A stretch of DNA of 64,000 bases. Origin: Tabrizicola aquatica. Its GTDB lineage: Bacteria; Pseudomonadota; Alphaproteobacteria; Rhodobacterales; Rhodobacteraceae. Positions 1 through 7,792 of this stretch are shown in pieces. The stretch spans positions 1,302,001 through 1,366,000 of the forward strand of contig NZ_PJON01000001.1 in assembly GCF_002900975.1 (NCBI RefSeq). The letters run 5' to 3'. Position 1 is the first letter of the stretch. Each line of letters starts with the position of its first letter. The notes below the pieces were generated by a model. That model was not told the origin of the DNA. It saw nothing but the letters and a program-made list of their open reading frames with translations, and did not search any database. The position numbers and the translations under genes were made by a program.

Positions 1-834
1 CTGGTCGCGGTCGGCCAGACCGTGGAAAAGGGTGCGGAACTGGCGCGGCTGGACAATGCCCTGGCGCTGGAAGGCGCGGTCCTGACTGCCGAGGCCAATC
101 TTGCGGTCCGCGAGGCCACGCTGATGCAGACCCGCGCGGCCGTGCAGGCCAGTCGGGACGAGGCGCAGGCGACGCTGGACCAGGCCACCGCAACCGCCGC
201 CGAGGCCGCCTCGGGCCAGCAGCGCACGGAAGAGTTGTTCCTGCGCGGCGTTGCCACGCAAGAGACACTGGACGCCGCCCGCACCGCAGCCCAAAGCGCC
301 CGCCTGGCGGTGACGCGCGCCGAGGCGACGCTCGCGCGCTTTGCCGGGGTCGCGCTGGACGAGCAGCCCGACATCGTCGTCGCCACCCGCAACGTCGAGG
401 CCAGTCGCGCCGATCTGGCCCGCGCGCGGCTGGACCTGCAACGCGCAGTCGTCGTCGCCCCGATCAGCGGCGCGATCCTGGACATCAACGCCACCCCCGG
501 CCAGCGCCCGCCCGCCGACGGGATCATGCAGATGGGCGCCACCGGCCGCATGATGGCCGAGGTCGAAATCTGGCAGGACCGCATCGCCCGGGTTGCCGTC
601 GGCCAGCCGGTCGAACTGGTCTCCTCGGCCTTGGGCCGAACGTTGCAGGGGCAGGTCGCGGCCATCGGCCTGACCGTGGGCCGCCAGGGCCTGATCTCGG
701 ACGATGCGGCGGAAAACAAGGATGCCCGCGTCATCCGCGTTCTGGTGGCGCTGGACCCCGACTCCTCGGCCATTGCGGCGCGGTTCACCAATCTTGAGGC
801 GATTGCCCGGATCGACACGCAGGCCGCGCCGTGA
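1..834 (+). CDS. Periplasmic adaptor (HlyD/DevB family) of an ABC exporter, 5' end missing
   Basis: The frame is open from base 1, so the true start lies upstream; the visible 277 residues are the C-terminal part. A long Ala/Glu/Arg-rich helical hairpin is followed by a lipoyl/beta-barrel region with the typical VVAPISGAI turn. This is the membrane fusion protein pattern of DevB/MacA-type exporters, which link an inner-membrane ABC transporter to the outer membrane. The stop overlaps the GTG start of the permease gene (GTGA), so the two are translationally coupled. The substrate cannot be read from sequence; glycolipid, lipoprotein or peptide export would fit the family. Confidence 0.85.
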   Translation: MVAVGQTVEKGAELARLDNALALEGAVLTAEANLAVREATLMQTRAAVQASRDEAQATLDQATATAAEAASGQQRTEELFLRGVATQETLDAARTAAQSARLAVTRAEATLARFAGVALDEQPDIVVATRNVEASRADLARARLDLQRAVVVAPISGAILDINATPGQRPPADGIMQMGATGRMMAEVEIWQDRIARVAVGQPVELVSSALGRTLQGQVAAIGLTVGRQGLISDDAAENKDARVIRVLVALDPDSSAIAARFTNLEAIARIDTQAAP

Positions 835-2003
835 CGCGGCTTTTGCAACGCCTGCTGGGCCGCCTGCCAATCGGCTGGCTGCAACTGACGCACAACCCGA
901 TGCGCTTTGCCGCGGCCCTGGTCGGGGTGGCCTTCGCCAACGTGCTGGTTTTCGTCCAGCTGGGGATCATGAATTCGATGGGGACGGCCGTCCTGCAACC
1001 CTACAGCTTCTTTTCCGCCGATGTGATGATCTCGGCTTCGGATGCCAACGCGCTGACCGATGGCGGCAATGTCGCGCGGCAGTGGCTGTTGCAGGCGATG
1101 GCCGACCCGGATGTGGTCGACGGGATCGGGCTGTTCGTCGGCAACGTGCCCCTGGACCGCGCCAGCACGGACATCGCCCTGACCACCTTCGGCATTGATC
1201 CGACCAAGCCCGATTTCCTGTCGCCCCTTATCGCGGACGACATCGCGCTGCTTCAGGTGCAGGACTCGGCCCTGATCGACCGCCTGGCCCGCGGCCTGCC
1301 GCGCGACGAGGCCGCCGCGATCCGCCCGCAATCGCCCCTGGCCTTCGAGACGCAGGGCCGCACCGTGACGGCCTATTCCACCTTTGCCGGCGGAGGCGGG
1401 TTCGGCGGCGACGGCTACATGATCATGTCGGACCAGACCTTCCTGTCGCTGTTTCCCGCCCGCCGTTCGGCCGCGCCCGACCATATCCTGTTGCGCCTGC
1501 GCCCCTCGGCGGATGTCGACGCCACCGTCCAGCGCCTGCGCAAGCTGATCTCGGACCCCGAATTGCGCATCCGCAGCTATGCCGACGCCGGGCAGGAGGA
1601 ACTGACTTACCAGCAGACCAAGCGCCCGACCGGGATCATCTTCGGCTTCGGCGTGCTGATTGGGGTGCTGGTCGGGCTGGTGATCGTCTACCAGGTGCTG
1701 TCCACCGATGTGGCCGACCACCTGCGCGAATATGCGACCTTCAAGGCGATGGGCTATGACCAGCGTTTCTTCATGGGCATCGTCCTGGAAGAGGCGCTGA
1801 TCCTGGGCATCCTGGGGTTCGTGCCGGGGGTGACGGTCGGCGGCACGATCCTGACGGTGATGGGCAAGGTCACCACCCTGCCGCTGGCGGTGACCTGGTC
1901 GATGGCGGCGACCGTCTTTGTCGGGACCGTGGTCTTTTCGGCCCTGTCCGGCGCGATTGCCACCCGCCGCCTTGCCGCCGCCGATCCGGCCGACCTGTTC
2001 TGA
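831..2003 (+). CDS. ABC exporter permease, DevC/MacB type (FtsX domain)
   Basis: 390 residues with a GTG start overlapping the upstream stop. There is one N-terminal membrane segment (about residues 22-40), a large periplasmic domain (about 45-270) and three C-terminal membrane helices ending in the AxxRLAAADPADLF tail. That is the FtsX/MacB-like permease layout of DevC proteins. It forms the membrane part of the exporter with the adaptor before it and the ATPase after it. DevC-type permeases act as mechanotransmission units rather than classical substrate channels. Confidence 0.85.
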   Translation: MTRLLQRLLGRLPIGWLQLTHNPMRFAAALVGVAFANVLVFVQLGIMNSMGTAVLQPYSFFSADVMISASDANALTDGGNVARQWLLQAMADPDVVDGIGLFVGNVPLDRASTDIALTTFGIDPTKPDFLSPLIADDIALLQVQDSALIDRLARGLPRDEAAAIRPQSPLAFETQGRTVTAYSTFAGGGGFGGDGYMIMSDQTFLSLFPARRSAAPDHILLRLRPSADVDATVQRLRKLISDPELRIRSYADAGQEELTYQQTKRPTGIIFGFGVLIGVLVGLVIVYQVLSTDVADHLREYATFKAMGYDQRFFMGIVLEEALILGILGFVPGVTVGGTILTVMGKVTTLPLAVTWSMAATVFVGTVVFSALSGAIATRRLAAADPADLF

Positions 2004-2012
2004 GGGGGCCTT

Positions 2013-2708
2013 ATGACCGAAGATCCGATCGTCCTGGCGCAACGGCTGAACCACTGGTTCGGCACAGGGTCCGCGCGCAAACAGGCGCTTTACGACATCG
2101 ACCTGCGGCTGGAGCGGGGCAGTTTCACCGTGCTGGTCGGCCCCTCGGGTTCAGGCAAGACCACGCTTCTGACCCTGATCGGCTGCCTGCGCCTGGTGCA
2201 GGAGGGGTCGCTGCACCTTATGGGACACGAGTTGCACGGGGCGGAGGAGGCACAGTTGGTCGCCATGCGCCGCCGCCTGGGCTTCATCTTTCAGGCGCAT
2301 AACCTGCATGAAAGCCTGACTGCCACACAGAATGTGATGATGGGCGCGCAGGTCCACCGCGGCGTGGCCGAGACTGCGGCGGGGGGCGCGGCGCGGCATA
2401 TCCTGGGGCTGGTCGGGCTTGCGGACCGCACCGACTATCTTCCGGCCAACCTCTCGGGCGGGCAGAAGCAGCGTGTCGCCATCGCCCGCGCCCTGGTCGG
2501 CAATCCCGACCTGTTGCTGGCCGACGAGCCGACGGCCGCGCTGGACAAGGACAGCGCCAGCGAGGCCATCGACCTGATGCGCCGGATCGGTGCGGCCCGT
2601 GGCATGACGACCCTGCTGGTGACGCATGATCCGCGCATCCTGGACCGCGCCGACCGCATCCTGACGCTGGAGGACGGGCGTATCGTGGCGGACAGGCGGA
2701 CGGGCTAG
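2013..2708 (+). CDS. ABC exporter ATPase, DevA type
   Basis: 231 residues. Walker A GPSGSGKTT is at residues 43-51, the signature LSGGQKQR at 147-154 and Walker B LLLADEP at 167-173, followed by the D-loop and an H-loop VTHD. The gene starts 9 nt after the permease stop and belongs to the LolD/MacB/DevA branch of exporter ATPases. It completes a DevBCA set. It ends 7 nt from the convergent nrsF gene with no clear terminator between them. Confidence 0.9.
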   Translation: MTEDPIVLAQRLNHWFGTGSARKQALYDIDLRLERGSFTVLVGPSGSGKTTLLTLIGCLRLVQEGSLHLMGHELHGAEEAQLVAMRRRLGFIFQAHNLHESLTATQNVMMGAQVHRGVAETAAGGAARHILGLVGLADRTDYLPANLSGGQKQRVAIARALVGNPDLLLADEPTAALDKDSASEAIDLMRRIGAARGMTTLLVTHDPRILDRADRILTLEDGRIVADRRTG

Positions 2709-2715
2709 GCCCCGC

Positions 2716-3354
2716 CTACCAACGCAGGAAACGGTGGCCCAGAGCGGCCCCGATGCCGGTCACGATCAGGATGCCAAGGCCGTACCAGGTCACGAAGAAC
2801 AGCGGTGAATCCTCGGGGCAGTGCAGGGCATAGCCGGCAGTCATCGCCGACGCGACGGCAAGACCCAGAAGCGCGCCCGTCACCCGCGGCCGGGTGGTCG
2901 CGCCCCGGCGCAGCAGGATCACCCCCGCCGCCAGCGGCAGCGCCGACAGGACCGAGATCGACACCAGGCAGGCCATGGCCGTCTGACCGACAAGTTCGAC
3001 CAGCAGCGGGCCCTCGGCGACGGTCAGGCGTTGCAGGACCATGGCAAGCGCCAGCCCGGCCGGGATCGCCAGCGGCCAGAGCGCGCCCTGCCCCTCGGGG
3101 CGCGACATCCGCAGCGCCAGCCAGCCCGCCAGGACCGACAAGGCCAGCGGCAGAAGCGTCTTGGCCTGGGCCGGAAGCGCCGCCCAAGCGCCGACAAGAT
3201 CGGCGCGCAGGCCAAAGACCTGCAGGAACAGCACCAGCACAAATCCCACCAGCACCACCGTTGCGCTCAGCGCCACGGCGGGGCGGAACGCAACCGGCGC
3301 GGGCGCTGCGGCCAACTGCCGGATCAAGGCTTCGGTCGAGCTTCTGTCGCTCAT
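2716..3354 (-). CDS. nrsF: NrsF-type (DUF1109) membrane anti-sigma factor
   Basis: 212 residues with about six hydrophobic helices, matching the DUF1109/NrsF family that holds a cognate ECF sigma factor at the inner membrane. Two cysteines, C129 and C179, lie 50 residues apart in membrane-proximal positions. From memory, Caulobacter NrsF has a similarly spaced conserved pair needed for metal-stress sensing, so these are the likely sensor thiols. Its ATG overlaps the sigma-factor stop (ATGA), the usual coupling of sigma and anti-sigma. It is the last gene of the bufferin operon. Confidence 0.85.
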   Translation of the reverse strand: MSDRSSTEALIRQLAAAPAPVAFRPAVALSATVVLVGFVLVLFLQVFGLRADLVGAWAALPAQAKTLLPLALSVLAGWLALRMSRPEGQGALWPLAIPAGLALAMVLQRLTVAEGPLLVELVGQTAMACLVSISVLSALPLAAGVILLRRGATTRPRVTGALLGLAVASAMTAGYALHCPEDSPLFFVTWYGLGILIVTGIGAALGHRFLRW

Positions 3355-3905
3355 TTCATCATCCTTTCCGCGACCCCCGACAGCCGACGCATGGCGCGGT
3401 GCAACGCCACCCGCGCCGCACCCGCCGTCAGACCGACCGCCGCGCCCGCCTCTTCGGCGGTCTTGCCATCCAGCGCCACCGCCCGGACCAGGATGGCCGA
3501 ACGGCTGTCGATCAGGCCCAGCATCACCTCGGCATCCCGGTCCGACAGGGGCGGAGTGACATGCTCTTCGGGCAGCACATCGGCGAAATCCTCGATCGGC
3601 AGGCTGACTGCCCGGCCCCGCCGGCGAAAGGCATCCACCACCTTGTAGCGGGCCAGCGCATAGAGCCAGGGCCTGACCGGAGACTCCCGCCGCCAGGTCT
3701 GGCGCTTCAGGTGGATCGCCAGCAGCACCTCTTGCAGGACGTCCTCGTGCTGGTCGGGGGGCAGCCCGTCGCCCCGGCGCCGGATCACCGCGCGCAGGGT
3801 GGGCGTCACCAGATGCAGGAACCGTGCAAAGGCTGCACCATCCCCGTCATTGGCGCGGGCGAGCAGCGTTTCCCAGACTTCATCCTGTTGCAGCCTAGCC
3901 TCCAT
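3351..3905 (-). CDS. sigF: ECF RNA polymerase sigma factor, SigF-like
   Basis: 184 residues. Region 2 (about residues 14-90, including the QEVLLAIHLK and WLYALARYKVVDAFRRR stretches) and region 4 (about 125-180, helix-turn-helix) are both present and no other domain is seen. Pairing with NrsF and placement at the end of a DUF2282/DUF692/DUF2063/DoxX operon mirror Caulobacter SigF, which responds to heavy metals. The ATG at 3905 gives the normal family length. An in-frame ATG at 3983 overlaps the thioredoxin stop (ATGA) and would add 26 residues, so the start is not settled. Confidence 0.85.
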   Translation of the reverse strand: MEARLQQDEVWETLLARANDGDGAAFARFLHLVTPTLRAVIRRRGDGLPPDQHEDVLQEVLLAIHLKRQTWRRESPVRPWLYALARYKVVDAFRRRGRAVSLPIEDFADVLPEEHVTPPLSDRDAEVMLGLIDSRSAILVRAVALDGKTAEEAGAAVGLTAGAARVALHRAMRRLSGVAERMMK

Positions 3906-3979
3906 CCCCGACCAGGCGAACCTAGCCGAACCGAAGCCTGCCGCACAGTCACGCCTCGGTGAAAAGGCGAAGGCTGTGG

Positions 3980-4387
3980 TCATCCTGCCGCCGCCAGCGC
4001 CGCATCGAACAGCGCCTTGATCTCGTCCCGGCCGGTTCCGGCGACGATGCGGCCGATCTCTTGCTGGCCCTTCAGCGCCACCAGGGTCGAGCGGCGCGGA
4101 ATCTTCAGCCCGCGCGAGAGGGGACCGTCGCCATGCTGGTCCCAGTCCACCACGATCAGGCGGATCTTCTGGCCATAGACCGGGCTTTCCGCCATCAGAC
4201 TGGCGATGACCCGTTCCTGCGCCGCGCAAGTGCTGCACCAGCTGGCCCAGAAGTCCAGGATGACAACCTCGCCCGCCTCCATCGCCGCCTCGGCCAGGCC
4301 GGGGGTATAGAAGACGCGGTCGTCGGCATGCAGCGGGCCGGCCAGAAGCAGGGCCGAAGCGGACAGAAGCAGGGTGCGGCGGTTCAT
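3980..4387 (-). CDS. Periplasmic thioredoxin-fold protein of the bufferin operon
   Basis: 135 residues. The N-terminus MNRRTLLLSA with a hydrophobic core and an Ala-rich end is a signal peptide, possibly Tat-type because of the double arginine. The thioredoxin motif W-C-S-T-C sits at residues 50-54 (C51, C54). A GGAG ribosome site lies 7-8 nt before the ATG. It follows ccdA by 14 nt, so the natural reading is that CcdA passes electrons to this protein in the periplasm. Likely clients are the cysteines of the bufferin or the NrsF sensor thiols; that is inference. Confidence 0.85.
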   Translation of the reverse strand: MNRRTLLLSASALLLAGPLHADDRVFYTPGLAEAAMEAGEVVILDFWASWCSTCAAQERVIASLMAESPVYGQKIRLIVVDWDQHGDGPLSRGLKIPRRSTLVALKGQQEIGRIVAGTGRDEIKALFDAALAAAG

Positions 4388-4401
4388 GGGATACTCCGGT
4401 T

Positions 4402-5112
4402 TCAGATGCTGACAGACAGATCGACCAGCCAGGCCGGCAGGATGCGCAGCGCGGTGGCCTCAAGAAAATGGTTCACGCCCAGAAAGAGCGCCGCCCCAAC
4501 GGCGATGAAGACCCAGCCCATGACCGGCCGCGCCCGGGCCGAAAGCGCCACCAGCCGCCCCATGTTCCGGCGCAGCACCCCGCGCAGGCCATAGGCGAAG
4601 GCCAGGATCAGCGTCGCAACCCCCGTTGCAAAGGCGGCCATGACCAGTGCGGCGTGGCCCAGCCCCTCGCCCGTGCTGGCAAGGGCAATCGCGGCGCCCA
4701 GGGTCGGGCCGATGCAGGGGCTCCAGACCGCGCCAAGCAGCGCGCCGCCCATGAATTCGGTGCCGATCCCGCGCGGCGCCGCTGCGATCCGCGCATCCGC
4801 CGCCGCCGCAACCCCGGCCGAGGCCGCGGCAAAGCGGCGCCCCACGGCCGGCACGACCAGAACCGCGCCGAAGCCGATCATCGCCAGCGCCGCCAGGCGG
4901 GTCACATCCTCGGGGTAAAGGCCCAGGGCCGGACCCAGGGCCGCGATCCCCGTGCCCAGCGTCACGAAGGACAGTCCCATTCCCGCCGCCAGCGCCAGCG
5001 GCGCACGCGGGTCGGTCTGCAGACTGCTGGCCAGCACGATCGGCAGGACCGGCAGCACACAGGGGTTGATCAGCGTCAGAAGCCCCGCAAGATATGCGAA
5101 AACCAGGTCCAT
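4402..5112 (-). CDS. ccdA: CcdA-like thiol electron transporter
   Basis: 236 residues with six predicted membrane helices. The two redox cysteines are in the expected PCVLP (C18) and SPCIGP (C133) contexts of CcdA/DsbD-beta proteins, which move reducing power from cytoplasmic thioredoxin across the membrane. The ATG overlaps the doxX stop by one base (TGATG). It belongs to the bufferin operon and probably serves the thioredoxin encoded next. A general cytochrome c role is possible, but no heme-lyase or apocytochrome gene is near. Confidence 0.85.
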   Translation of the reverse strand: MDLVFAYLAGLLTLINPCVLPVLPIVLASSLQTDPRAPLALAAGMGLSFVTLGTGIAALGPALGLYPEDVTRLAALAMIGFGAVLVVPAVGRRFAAASAGVAAAADARIAAAPRGIGTEFMGGALLGAVWSPCIGPTLGAAIALASTGEGLGHAALVMAAFATGVATLILAFAYGLRGVLRRNMGRLVALSARARPVMGWVFIAVGAALFLGVNHFLEATALRILPAWLVDLSVSI

Positions 5113-5549
5113 CAGACGCGCGGCCCGCCATCCCATCCCAAGAGATGGTCCAGCGACCAGCGCCCCGGCCCCCAGATCACCAGCGCCAGCAGCGGCGCGG
5201 CCCAAAGGCCATGCGTCATCCAGGCATCCGGGTAGACAAAGATCTGGATCACCGCTGTCATCGCCAACAGGCCCAGCGCCGAAAACCGCGTGAAAAGGCC
5301 CAGGATCAGCAGGACCGGCAACAGATGCTCGGCCACCGTCGCCAGCACCGCCGCCAACTCGTGCGGGATCACGGGCAGGGCATATTCATGCTCGAACAGG
5401 AACCAGGTCGAATCCTTGATCGAGAACCCCTCCACCTTGGTGCGCCCCGACTGCCAGAACACCAGCGCCGGAAAGACCCGCAGCAGCAGGCCCACAGGTG
5501 CCTCTGGCAGCCTGGCGCAGGCCTGGTTCAGCTTGGCGATTGCGGTCAT
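5112..5549 (-). CDS. DoxX-family membrane protein (bufD/gigD position)
   Basis: 145 residues with four hydrophobic segments and the DoxX features RVFPALVFW near the N-terminus and a conserved [11 protein letters not shown] helix. A GGGAG ribosome site precedes the ATG. The gene lies 3 nt after the DUF2063 gene, the same order as in Caulobacter gigABCD-type and other bufferin operons. DoxX proteins are quinone- or thiol-linked membrane proteins; the role in bufferin systems is not established. Confidence 0.85.
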
Positions 5550-5552
5550 GTC

Positions 5553-6302
5553 TTACTCCCTTGCGTCGGTGATCGCGCCTGCCTGCATCAACCAGACAAG
5601 CAACGGTTGCGGGTCATGCCCCGCTTCGGCCTCCTGCCCGGCCAAGGCCGCAGCGGCGAGGGGGTCCCCGGCCATCAGCGCCGTGACCAGAGCGGCATCG
5701 CCCGCTTCAAGCGCCCGCACCTGCACCTGGAACGCCGCATCGCGCAGGATCAGCGCGGTCTGCGGTCCCTTGGCCAGGGGCAGCCCCTCGCCCTCGGGCT
5801 GGTTGCGCGCCCAGATCGATACGGCCGGATGCGCCAGCCGCAGCAGCAGGAGGGACGGGTGCAGCGCAAGCCGAACCTTCTCGGGATCGGCCGAGATCAG
5901 GGCCAAGGGATCGACGGGCGGCGCATCGGCGGCATGGAAGGCGCGGCCACGGGCATATTCGATCCGCGCCACATCCCCAAGATAGGGATAGCCGGACAAG
6001 GGGGGGAAGCCGTCCAGAAAGGCCCCGAACCCATCGCCCCATTCGGCAAGGATGGGCGATCTGGGGCGTTCGGCCTCGGCGTAAAGCCGGGCCAGCGGGG
6101 CGAAGAACTCCGCGCCCACCAGGCGCCGGATCACCGGAAAACGCGCGGCAAGCGCCTCGGTCAGGCTGACTGCCACGTTGTTGCGATAGACGGCAAAGCG
6201 GCGCTCGACCTCGGTCGCATCGCGGGCGGTCAGGCCGGCAGGCAAGGCCCCCCCGCGCAAGGCCGCATCGAACTGCGCGACGAATTCAGGATGCGCGGGC
6301 AA
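5553..6302 (-). CDS. bufC: DUF2063 partner protein of the MNIO enzyme (BufC/HvfC type)
   Basis: 249 residues. The N-terminal half carries the DUF2063 pattern ([12 protein letters not shown], then [10 protein letters not shown]); the C-terminal half is the winged-helix-like domain seen in BufC/HvfC proteins. In known systems the partner binds the precursor and presents it to the DUF692 enzyme. The start is a TTG at 6302 that overlaps the bufB 3' end by 17 nt, with a G-rich ribosome site inside bufB. No nearby in-frame ATG would keep the conserved N-terminus. Confidence 0.85.
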
Positions 6303-7131
6303 GGCCGGTCCCCCCCGCCGCCAGCACCGCCGCCGCCCGCGCCGCCTCGGCCGCCAGCACCGGCCAGTCGGGCAGGTCGTTGTCCCATTCCACCAGCGTG
6401 GGCAGCGGGCCGGCGGCCGCGATCACCTCGGCATAAAGCGCCCAGACCGGGTCGGCCACCGCCGCACCATGGCTGTCGATCAGCAGCGGACCCGAGGGCA
6501 AATCCTCGGCATCATGGCCGCCCAGATGGATCTCGCCCACTGCATGCAGCGGGAAGGCCGCCAGGAACGCACGCGGGTCGGTGCCGTGGTTGGTGCAGGA
6601 CACAAAGACGTTGTTCACATCCAGCAACAGCCCACAGCCGGTGCGGCGCGCGATCTCGGCCAGAAACTCGGTCTCGGAGATGGTCGACTGCGCAAAGCGC
6701 AGATAGGTGGCGGGGTTTTCCAGCAGCATCCGCCGGCCCAGCGCCTCTTGCACCTGATCCACATGATCGCAGACCAGTTGCAGCGTCTCGGCGGTATAGG
6801 GCAAGGGCAGCAGGTCGTTCAGATACTCCGCGCCATGGCTGGACCAGGCCAGATGTTCGGAAAAGCTTGCCGGTTCATAGCGCGCGCACAGATGGCGCAG
6901 GCGCTGCAGGTGCTCGGCGTCCAGCCCCCGCGCGCCCCCGATCGACAACCCGACCCCGTGGATCGAGATCGGGTAATCCGCCCGGATGGACGTCAGTTGC
7001 ACATGCGGCAGGCCGCCGGCCCCCATGTAGTTCTCGGCATGGACCTCGAAGAACCCCACCCCGGCAGCATCGGCGCGGATCGCGGGGAAATGTTCGGGCT
7101 TGAAACCCACTCCGGGCAGGGCTGGCAGCAT
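6286..7131 (-). CDS. bufB: DUF692 multinuclear non-heme iron-dependent oxidase (BufB/HvfB/MbnB type)
   Basis: 281 residues, a TIM-barrel enzyme of the MNIO family. Typical metal-site motifs are visible in order: [42 protein letters not shown] and SHGAAV. Family members convert cysteines of a precursor peptide, for example to thiooxazoles in bufferins. The ATG at 7131 was chosen because the conserved N-terminus [10 protein letters not shown] begins there and an AAGGA lies about 10 nt upstream. It is separated from the precursor gene by 55 nt holding a strong hairpin, and overlaps bufC. Confidence 0.92.
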
Positions 7132-7153
7132 GATGCATCCGTCCTTGGGAAAG

Positions 7154-7178
7154 CGGCGCGCGGATGACCCGCGCGCCG
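7154..7178 (-). promoter_or_regulatory. Strong intercistronic hairpin between bufA and bufB
   Basis: A perfect 10-bp, all-GC inverted repeat (arms 7154-7163 and 7169-7178) encloses a 5-nt loop. It lies 8 nt after the bufA stop and before the bufB start, with no long T run. Such a structure would stabilise the short upstream message or partly attenuate read-through, giving more precursor than enzyme. That role is inferred. Confidence 0.6.
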
Positions 7179-7186
7179 GCAGGGGG

Positions 7187-7495
7187 TCAGGCCTTGGGAA
7201 CGTCGCGCTCCAGCGCCTCAAGCGCGCCGGCACGGGCGGTGCCATCTTCGGCTGCCGGCAGTTCCATGGTCACGCAGGTCCCGGCCGGAACCATCTTCCA
7301 GGCATTGCCCTGATAGTCGACCTTCGAGGTGCCGGCGCAGGTCGTGCCCGGACCGGCGGCGCAGTCGTTCTGCCCGGCCAGCGCCACGCCAAAGCACTTT
7401 TCCATTTCCTGGGCAGCCACCGGCGTCACCGCCATCGCGCCAAGCGCGCAAGCCAGGGAAGCACCGAACACCAGACGGGACGTCATCGCAGTCAT
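7187..7495 (-). CDS. bufA: Bufferin-like RiPP precursor (DUF2282)
   Basis: 102 residues. A Sec-type signal peptide ends near residue 28 (TPVAAQ). The core begins [16 protein letters not shown] and contains four cysteines, C34, C45, C53 and C74, in the DUF2282 pattern K-C-x-G-V-x(2)-A-G-x-N-D-C-A, then C-A-G-T-S-K-V and P-A-G-T-C. Known bufferins are long precursors with signal peptides whose cysteines are modified and that bind copper. The ATG at 7495 has AGGAG 6 nt upstream; an ATG at 7486 has none. It heads the operon and is the likely substrate of the DUF692 enzyme. Confidence 0.9.
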
Positions 7496-7543
7496 GTCAA
7501 ACTCCTGTTGAACCAGAAAGGCCATCTGCCCTTCACCAAGCAG

Positions 7544-7569
7544 TTCGCACCAGGACATGCGGCCATTAC
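7544..7569 (-). promoter_or_regulatory. Candidate SigF-type ECF promoter of the bufferin operon
   Basis: Reading on the minus strand, GTAATG (7569-7564) is followed by exactly 16 nt and then CGAA (7547-7544), about 49 nt before the bufA ATG. From memory the Caulobacter SigF promoter is GTAACC-N16-CGAA, so this is a 4/6 plus 4/4 match with identical spacing. It would let the sigma factor at the operon end switch on its own operon. Confidence 0.5.
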
Positions 7570-7715
7570 AGGCATCGCGCGTTCGTGAAACCTTGAAGGA
7601 AACGGCAGGCCCGGCGGCCCGCGGCAAGGATCGTGGCCCGACGCAAGCACGCGGCATGACAAGGACGGCCGGACCCAGGTTCCCTGCCGCTTGAACAATC
7701 AATGTAGGGGAAGGA

Positions 7716-7792
7716 TGGTACCGCCTCCCCGGCTCGAACGGGGGACCCCCAGATCCACAATCTGGTGCTCTAACCAACTGAGCTAAGGCGGC
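7716..7792 (-). tRNA. tRNA-His (anticodon GTG), CCA encoded
   Basis: The minus strand folds into a full cloverleaf: acceptor GCCGCCT/AGGCGGT, D arm GCTC..GAGC, anticodon stem CCAGA/TCTGG with loop TTGTGGA, and T arm CCCCG-TTCGAGC-CGGGG. The anticodon is GTG. The encoded 3' end is ACCA. The base before G1 is T, the discriminator is A73 and the first pair is G1:U72. This is the unusual alphaproteobacterial tRNA-His form that lacks G-1. Confidence 0.95.

Follow-up and report, generated by a model that had tools for sequence, protein, structure and literature searches.

A 64,000-nucleotide (nt) stretch of the Tabrizicola aquatica genome (contig NZ_PJON01000001.1, positions 1,302,001 to 1,366,000; hereafter the window) carries an operon of eight protein genes, bufA-bufB-bufC-doxX-ccdA-trx-sig-nrsF, at positions 7495-2716 of the minus strand. 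It is probably a Buf1 bufferin operon, expected to yield a copper-binding peptide, and controlled by the ECF16-type extracytoplasmic function (ECF) sigma factor and the NrsF anti-sigma factor that it carries itself, together with a probable second, dimeric regulator at an inverted repeat, TCAC-N6-GTGA, in front of the operon promoter. This is based here on the genes, the promoter match, the fixed distance between repeat and promoter in relatives and the lack of a promoter of its own for sig in collinear loci, with metal or H2O2 release, the cysteine roles and autoregulation being taken from relatives. The elements are, in the direction of transcription:

7575..7588, minus strand: inverted repeat TCACGAACGCGCGA, first element of the composite promoter, one mismatch to TCAC-N6-GTGA, with a spacing fixed in relatives
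7544..7569, minus strand: ECF16-type promoter GTAAT-N17-CGAA before bufA, one base off the published consensus
7187..7495, minus strand: bufA, Buf1 bufferin precursor (DUF2282), 102 amino acids (aa), signal-peptide-like N-terminus (by eye), then four cysteines
6286..7131, minus strand: bufB, MNIO bufferin maturase, 281 aa
5553..6302, minus strand: bufC, DUF2063 partner protein, 249 aa, TTG start
5112..5549, minus strand: doxX, DoxX-family membrane protein, 145 aa
4402..5112, minus strand: ccdA, DsbD/CcdA-like membrane electron carrier, 236 aa, with C18 and C133
3980..4387, minus strand: trx, thioredoxin with a WCSTC active site, 135 aa, signal-peptide-like N-terminus
3949..3962, minus strand: second inverted repeat TCACCGAGGCGTGA in the trx-sig gap, a copy of the TCAC-N6-GTGA element
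3919..3924, minus strand: TAGGTT, a -10-like TANNNT hexamer, in seven of eight aligned collinear loci including the window
3351..3905, minus strand: sig, ECF16-type sigma factor gene, start at 3905 or alternatively at an upstream ATG at 3983
2716..3354, minus strand: nrsF, six-helix membrane anti-sigma factor, 212 aa, with C129 and C179

The families and the location of the eight genes, as well as the presence of a sigma/anti-sigma pair inside a bufferin operon, had been proposed in the initial annotation of this DNA and are borne out by the profiles, the neighbours and the ECF16-type promoter before bufA. Pfam scores above the cut-off were obtained for DUF2282 (89.8 bits, BufA), MbnB_TglH_ChrH (358, BufB), DUF2063 (83.5, BufC), DoxX (66), Thioredoxin (29.6), Sigma70_r2 (32.2) and NrsF (140.8), with sigma region 4 of the sig product remaining below it (19.8 versus 25.7) and the ccdA product slightly below DsbD_TM (24.4 versus 27.1 bits) while possessing the cysteine motifs NPCVLP and SPCIGPT. 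As in other Buf1 operons, the DUF2282 precursor has four conserved cysteines and a signal peptide (the latter by eye), the maturase is of the BufB type (NCBIfam MNIO_BufB, 391.4 bits, cut-off 310), and DUF2063 and DoxX partners are recognised by Pfam, the NCBIfam HvfC and HvfX models staying below cut-off; the thioredoxin shows the profile, a WCxxC motif and, by eye, an export signal. The sig gene is followed by a DUF1109/NrsF six-helix protein with two conserved cysteines, as is characteristic of ECF16. The pair has diverged from the curated NCBIfam equivalog models, whose cut-offs are not reached (PRK12512 sigma, 187.9 versus 198 bits; AntiSigF_NrsF, 67.6 versus 300 bits), and the ECF16 assignment of sig is derived from NrsF, the neighbours and the promoter and not from a group-specific sigma model.

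The genes are closely packed, with 55 nt between bufA and bufB, a 17-nt overlap of bufB and bufC, 3 nt between bufC and doxX, a 1-nt overlap of doxX and ccdA, 14 nt between ccdA and trx, 74 nt between trx and sig (a 4-nt overlap if the upstream sig ATG is used) and a 4-nt overlap of sig and nrsF. Only the bufA-bufB and, with the preferred sigma start, the trx-sig gaps exceed 20 nt; the description of the operon as free of real gaps is correct, apart from the 74 nt in front of sig. The start at 3905 is tentatively preferred over that at 3983 since the N-terminal extension, whose frame is open in the window and in loci L059, L088 and L131, is out of frame in L092.

For comparison, NrsF matches occurred in 14 of the 32 genus genomes and in 55 of 395 genomes sampled from the family, 49 of the latter over the cut-off. 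The locus set comprised all genus matches and the family matches over the cut-off, minus fragments in genomes G174 and G220, plus 80 named loci, the best of at least 500 relatives from a sigma search; the 138 loci with a sigma gene were reduced to 123 by collapsing those with at least 95% identity over the last 120 residues.

The bufA promoter, TGTAATGGCCGCATGTCCTGGTGCGAAC, ends 47 nt 5' of the bufA ATG. It agrees with the ECF16 consensus (T/C)GTAAC-N17-CGAA (PMC8315932) and with the Caulobacter SigF form GTAACC-N16-CGAA (PMC3511200) except for a T in place of the C closing the -35 element, being TGTAAT-N17-CGAA, one base off the consensus, where relatives mostly have GTAAC. The operon had been described as ending at 7569, which is the first base of the -35 GTAAT, and the regulatory region continues to 7588. 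The strict promoter motif was found in 50 of 77 distinct bufA regions. By itself, GTAAY-N16/17-CGAA is uninformative genome-wide (18 matches versus 47 in the reversed control), and TGTAAT-N17-CGAAC before bufA is one of two exact matches to TGTAATN{15,17}CGAAC in the genome; the other one, with an N15 spacer, lies antisense within a solute-binding-protein-like gene (by eye) and was taken as chance. The composite of repeat and promoter before bufA is the sole one in the 3.87-megabase genome. Matches to TGTAATTCTCGGCATG...CGAA inside bufB of several relatives were rejected as promoters, being conserved coding sequence.

The TCAC-N6-GTGA repeat, with at most one mismatch, begins 18-20 nt 5' of the G of GTAAC in 40 of the 50 bufA regions with the strict promoter (at exactly 19 nt in 35), at offset 29, one helical turn further, in three more of the 50, and at offset 25 in one. 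When the bufA upstream regions were shuffled by single bases, the count averaged 0.035 and never exceeded 1. As a guard against a pattern chosen post hoc, all 4-nt inverted repeats with 0-12 nt between the half-sites were scored at every start from -40 with one mismatch allowed: out of 89,856 combinations of repeat, spacing and position, TCAC-N6-GTGA at -19 ranks first (35/50), and among the combinations listed the sub-pattern CACG-N4-CGTG reaches 32/50 and the other ten, all from the same stretch, at most 13. Of the six inner columns, all but the one with the C before GTGA (0.90 bits) are almost unconstrained (0.02-0.16 bits), and this speaks against the sequence being shared merely through common descent. 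If transcription starts 6 nt beyond the -10 box, the distance mapped for Bradyrhizobium japonicum ecfF, the centre of the repeat falls near -43, which is the position of a class II activator. The fixed distance between repeat and promoter across relatives suggests that a second regulator helps to switch the operon on, and the repeat is probably the site of a dimeric activator working alongside the sigma factor.

It is unlikely that the sigma factor drives the single operon promoter in simple positive feedback, with the repeat being only a DNA feature that aids the holoenzyme, e.g. through curvature or alpha-subunit contact. The near confinement of the composite to sigma-target genes and the low enrichment of the repeat elsewhere in the genome speak for such an arrangement, as do the target promoters of RpoE7 in Sinorhizobium meliloti (PMC6180224) and EcfF in B. 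japonicum (PMC3420878), which are described without a repeat in the available text. However, the two-fold symmetry, the half-sites 10 base pairs apart and the near-free inner bases look like a dimeric protein site, as do the three loci at offset 29, and in the 68 sig regions that have this type of promoter the repeat never occurs at 18-20 nt and occurs within 16-32 nt in two (offsets 24 and 30). That the regulator binding the repeat is BufC itself is highly improbable: Pfam labels DUF2063 a 'putative DNA-binding domain' and Kohler et al. discuss a report of DNA binding for NGO1945, whereas the closest NCBIfam model is HvfC, a family of ribosomally synthesized and post-translationally modified peptide (RiPP) maturation proteins, below its cut-off, and the repeat precedes ccdA-trx at L049, L076 and L077 with no bufC nearby (bufC elsewhere in those genomes was not searched for).

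Beyond bufA, the composite is present in three of eight divergent ccdA regions. Across the 395 family genomes the pattern gave 21 matches (three in the reversed control), 19 of them at buf, ccdA or doxX genes (15 before bufA, two before ccdA-trx, one before a bufC-like gene and one before doxX), each of the 19 in a genome that also has an NrsF match; 16 of these are loci that supplied the pattern and are not independent. The new ones are L112 (bufA), L122, where a bufC-like gene lies far from the nrsF of its genome (L083), and L125, where the composite precedes a doxX gene and the buf locus of that genome (L094) has none; two of the 19 are unlinked to sig. The remaining matches, L115 and L116, lie inside or between unrelated genes of genomes without an NrsF match and were counted as chance. 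A sample of 337 genomes of the class, five of them from the family, gave three matches besides the window (control 1): before bufA beside sig/nrsF (L230), before a ccdA-thioredoxin pair behind a response-regulator-like gene and another ECF sigma gene (by appearance), with the gene order of B. japonicum bll1029-bll1026 (L231), and before a gene for a secreted protein, which we take to be YHS-like (L229). A YHS-domain-like secreted protein (by eye) is also encoded directly behind nrsF in L057 and is perhaps a further regulon member. In L122 (900-1560, minus strand) no bufA or bufB is recognisable between the composite and the bufC-like gene, and the stretch could hold an unusual precursor.

Several observations weigh against control by the sigma factor together with a second regulator. 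The strict promoter motif is missing in 27 of the 77 bufA regions, and in the window itself the -35 element is GTAAT and not GTAAC and the repeat carries a mismatch, GCGA for GTGA. The Paracoccus collinear loci L136, L137 and L140 have neither promoter motif nor repeat (the divergent Paracoccus loci L183 and L186 carry both), and neither was found in Rhizobium L195, L196 and L208, which have two bufA genes each, one upstream region of which was inspected. The strict repeat is little enriched in the genome of the window (nine places, 13 strand matches versus five in the control), so no wider regulon of the supposed regulator is visible, and the nine places give no clear target set for it. For Caulobacter, the CC3254 data were explained without an activator, and the second sigF regulator, described as 'still unknown', acts within -37 to +37 and not at the position of the repeat (PMC3511200). 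Besides, the loci were chosen by similarity to the window sigma factor or NrsF, so that the counts do not represent frequencies in the population, and loci that are related are not independent of one another. In the genome of the window, a perfect TCACG-N4-CGTGA (L233, 1501-1514; C1:780040-780053) sits between an ECF sigma/anti-sigma-like pair and a gene for a fasciclin-like secreted protein, all by eye.

Of the 61 loci with divergent buf genes, 43 have GTAAY-N15..18-CGAA before sig, as do 25 of 46 without buf, compared with none of the 16 collinear loci, in 12 of which the strict motif is found before bufA, the only such promoter detected there. With its sole promoter of this type before bufA, sigma made from the operon would depend on sigma, and the layout fits feedback through the operon. 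The positive feedback loop envisaged earlier is indirectly supported to this extent (sig lacks its own promoter in 16/16 collinear loci versus 43/61 divergent ones with it) and is complicated by the second element, since its conservation at bufA and its copy with a TANNNT hexamer before sig mean that sig may also be transcribed separately. That copy, TCACCGAGGCGTGA, lies 24 nt before TAGGTT, i.e. near -43 of a start from this hexamer, and is kept in seven of eight aligned collinear loci (with one mismatch in L088 and L092; absent from L133), as is the hexamer, L131 being unreadable there. Among all 16 collinear loci the repeat precedes sig in six by automatic count, or seven with L131, whose start is placed upstream of it. 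An internal start for sig at TAGGTT, giving separate transcription, is possible.

It appears rather doubtful, however, that sig is transcribed mainly from this start of its own in the 74-nt gap (TAGGTT 3924-3919), with little operon feedback and with its level depending on the second regulator and on the housekeeping sigma factor. Both gap elements are conserved in the aligned loci, and basal or non-ECF16 control of the sigma gene has been reported in Caulobacter (PMC3511200), Brucella (PMC8315932) and Cupriavidus metallidurans (PMC10304878), but no clear -35-like hexamer is evident in the gap, the promoter scan found no sigma-70-type (housekeeping) site in it, and the repeat before sig is restricted to the six or seven collinear loci mentioned.

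The buf genes are divergent from sig-nrsF in 60 of the 123 loci. Eight have buf and ccdA-trx collinear with sig, namely the window, L059, L088, L092, L130 (Rhodobacter sp. CACIA14H1), L131 (Gemmobacter nectariphilus), L137 (Paracoccus saliphilus) and L140 (P. gahaiensis); eight have buf collinear with sig without ccdA; eight have a divergent ccdA without buf, one of them (L095) coding for a distant, longer DsbD-like protein; one (L099) has divergent buf with ccdA-trx nearby; and 38 have neither buf nor ccdA, which is an upper bound as some stretches stop at contig ends. In a tree built from sigma and NrsF sequences joined end to end, from which L132 and L159 were left out (NrsF missing or split), 13 of 14 collinear loci share one clade with a local support of 1.0, so that sig seems to have become part of the buf operon only once there. 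The clade also contains L135, with sig-nrsF without buf, and L203 falls outside it; loci with and without ccdA-trx are intermixed inside, where support is weak. Members of the genus with ccdA divergent from sig (e.g. L049, L054) sit in a different clade of 16, and the window operon is therefore not simply a vertical version of theirs. In L185 (Rubellimicrobium roseum, 4591-5448), pieces of ccdA and trx behind doxX are split over frames, representing either a frameshifted pair or a sequencing fault.

NrsF possesses exactly two cysteines, C129 and C179, the pair singled out in the initial annotation, and both are invariant in 31 aligned NrsF proteins. The structure model (predicted local distance difference test, pLDDT, 95.5) consists of six long helices; C129 sits where the fourth begins and C179 in the loop leading into the sixth, which places them on the same membrane face; according to the model, both face the periplasm if the N-terminus is inside. 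A fold search of the model against solved structures returned nothing at E 0.001 or better, and a sequence search against them nothing at 0.1. In OsrA of B. japonicum, the C179S change prevents release by H2O2 and the C129S change abolishes sigma binding (PMC3420878), and in Caulobacter NrsF both single cysteine changes raise basal expression (PMC3511200). By analogy the two residues seem to have different roles, so the proposed release through C129/C179 needs qualification: they are not equivalent, C179 of OsrA serving for release and C129 for holding sigma (PMC3420878).

The CcdA-thioredoxin pair is likely to be a periplasmic thiol-reducing module. The CcdA subfamily (>260 bits) occurs in 133 of the 395 family genomes and at sig or buf loci in seven of these, and dedication to such loci was rejected on this ground; identity with soxVW was also rejected, since nine CcdA loci remote from nrsF showed no sox genes by eye in their short flanks (L227 with non-coding frames only) and the literature gave nothing decisive. 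In B. japonicum, expression of the CcdA-like and thioredoxin genes bll1027-bll1026 falls 15-20 fold without ecfF-osrA under H2O2, and the authors propose that the pair delivers electrons to a periplasmic methionine sulfoxide reductase (PMC3420878). Tentatively, and with a chance slightly short of even, CcdA and thioredoxin could serve the product or the sensor of the operon, either keeping the BufA cysteines reduced for copper binding or re-reducing NrsF and turning the response off. This would agree with ccdA-trx being in the same operon in eight distinct loci and with ccdA being divergent from sig-nrsF without buf in eight more (the distant L095 included), with the WCSTC motif and signal-like N-terminus of the thioredoxin and with the location of the NrsF cysteines on one side. 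Yet the pair also occurs without buf genes and so is not bufferin-specific, the subfamily is as widespread as stated above, and the B. japonicum authors assign the pair to methionine sulfoxide reductase.

Most of this interpretation is already published for relatives, namely the Buf1 sigma/NrsF genes, cysteine release, autoregulation and the CcdA-thioredoxin regulon pair; the composite promoter and the contrast of collinear and divergent layouts are new here. No published mention of TCAC-N6-GTGA at ECF16 promoters was found in the literature covered, which was partial, lay largely outside subscription papers and was not searched with the sequence as a term. Caulobacter SigF/NrsF indeed governs a similar gene set under metal induction, as stated in the initial annotation: it shares the DUF2282, DUF692, DUF2063 and DoxX genes, NrsF with two conserved periplasmic cysteines and the GTAACC-N16-CGAA promoter, but there sigF-nrsF is a unit apart from the buf genes, each having its own promoter, and the available text lists no ccdA-trx in the SigF regulon and describes no inverted repeat (PMC3511200). 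There, sigF is weakly autoregulated under chromate or cadmium (PMC3511200), and sigF and nrsF rise with copper (PMC8224329). The survey of Buf1 clusters reports the same precursor, MNIO, DUF2063 and DoxX core as well as sigma and NrsF genes; ccdA, DsbD and thioredoxin are absent from its main text, and other added genes occur in extremely low proportions (PMC12452194).

B. japonicum EcfF/OsrA resembles the window in its ECF16 sigma factor, DUF1109 anti-sigma factor with C129 and C179, autoregulation and the CcdA-like and thioredoxin pair in the EcfF regulon, and differs in that Table 3 names no bufferin genes, the targets include methionine sulfoxide reductases, bll1027-bll1026 do not adjoin ecfF and TCAC-N6-GTGA is not mentioned in the available text (PMC3420878). 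Overexpression of RpoE7 in S. meliloti raises the buf genes SMb20530-20527 as well as ecfR7 (log change 3.5). A promoter of the ECF16 type is present at rpoE7, and the value for rpoE7 itself possibly includes the added copy (PMC6180224); RpoE7 is probably autoregulated. This system and gigPABT-rpoQ-rsqA of C. metallidurans consist of separate units and not of one operon (divergent in C. metallidurans), and no ccdA-trx is mentioned for either in the available text (PMC6180224, PMC10304878), and rpoQ-rsqA is said to depend on RpoD (PMC10304878).

Under the proposed control by the sigma factor and a second regulator, NrsF, a six-helix inner-membrane protein, would hold the sigma factor at rest, and metal or an oxidant acting at its periplasmic side (on C179, with C129 maintaining the holding shape) would free it to start transcription at GTAAT-N17-CGAA before bufA. 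The transcript would code for bufferin and its maturase, for CcdA and thioredoxin, and for further sigma factor and NrsF; this additional NrsF, together with the periplasmic reducing pair, would then bring the system back to its resting state. A second dimeric regulator probably binds TCAC-N6-GTGA just upstream of the -35 element, centred near -43, and the repeat copy before sig may feed a separate sig start. We infer this regulator, where it binds and whether it activates, what CcdA-thioredoxin does in the operon and the internal sig start; the chances are about even that, in Rhodobacteraceae and certain other alphaproteobacteria, the promoters of bufferin and of CcdA-thioredoxin genes act as AND gates requiring both the NrsF-released ECF16 sigma factor and a dimeric activator at TCAC-N6-GTGA, the activator also controlling sig in the lineage of the window. 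If so, the feedback loop would be armed only when a second signal is present. The repeat is a concrete candidate site for the second factor at target promoters and, in this lineage, before sig; the second regulator of Caulobacter acts at the sigF promoter itself, so it is perhaps not the same factor. The repeat could be used as bait for the factor and as a landmark for listing bufferin regulons (cf. the unlinked doxX and bufC-like matches), and the collinear and divergent layouts offer a natural contrast for the effect of self-carried sigma feedback on the metal response.

Directly upstream of the operon and in the same orientation lies a tRNA-His gene (7716-7792, minus strand), separated from it by a terminator-like stem (7622-7605); such stems are no commoner than in shuffles, so read-through from tRNA-His into the operon is possible. 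On the other side, at window positions 22-2708 of the plus strand, there are genes of an ATP-binding cassette (ABC) exporter (by eye), coding for a membrane-fusion-like protein, a permease and an ATPase, the ATPase gene (by eye) converging on nrsF with 7 nt between the stop codons.

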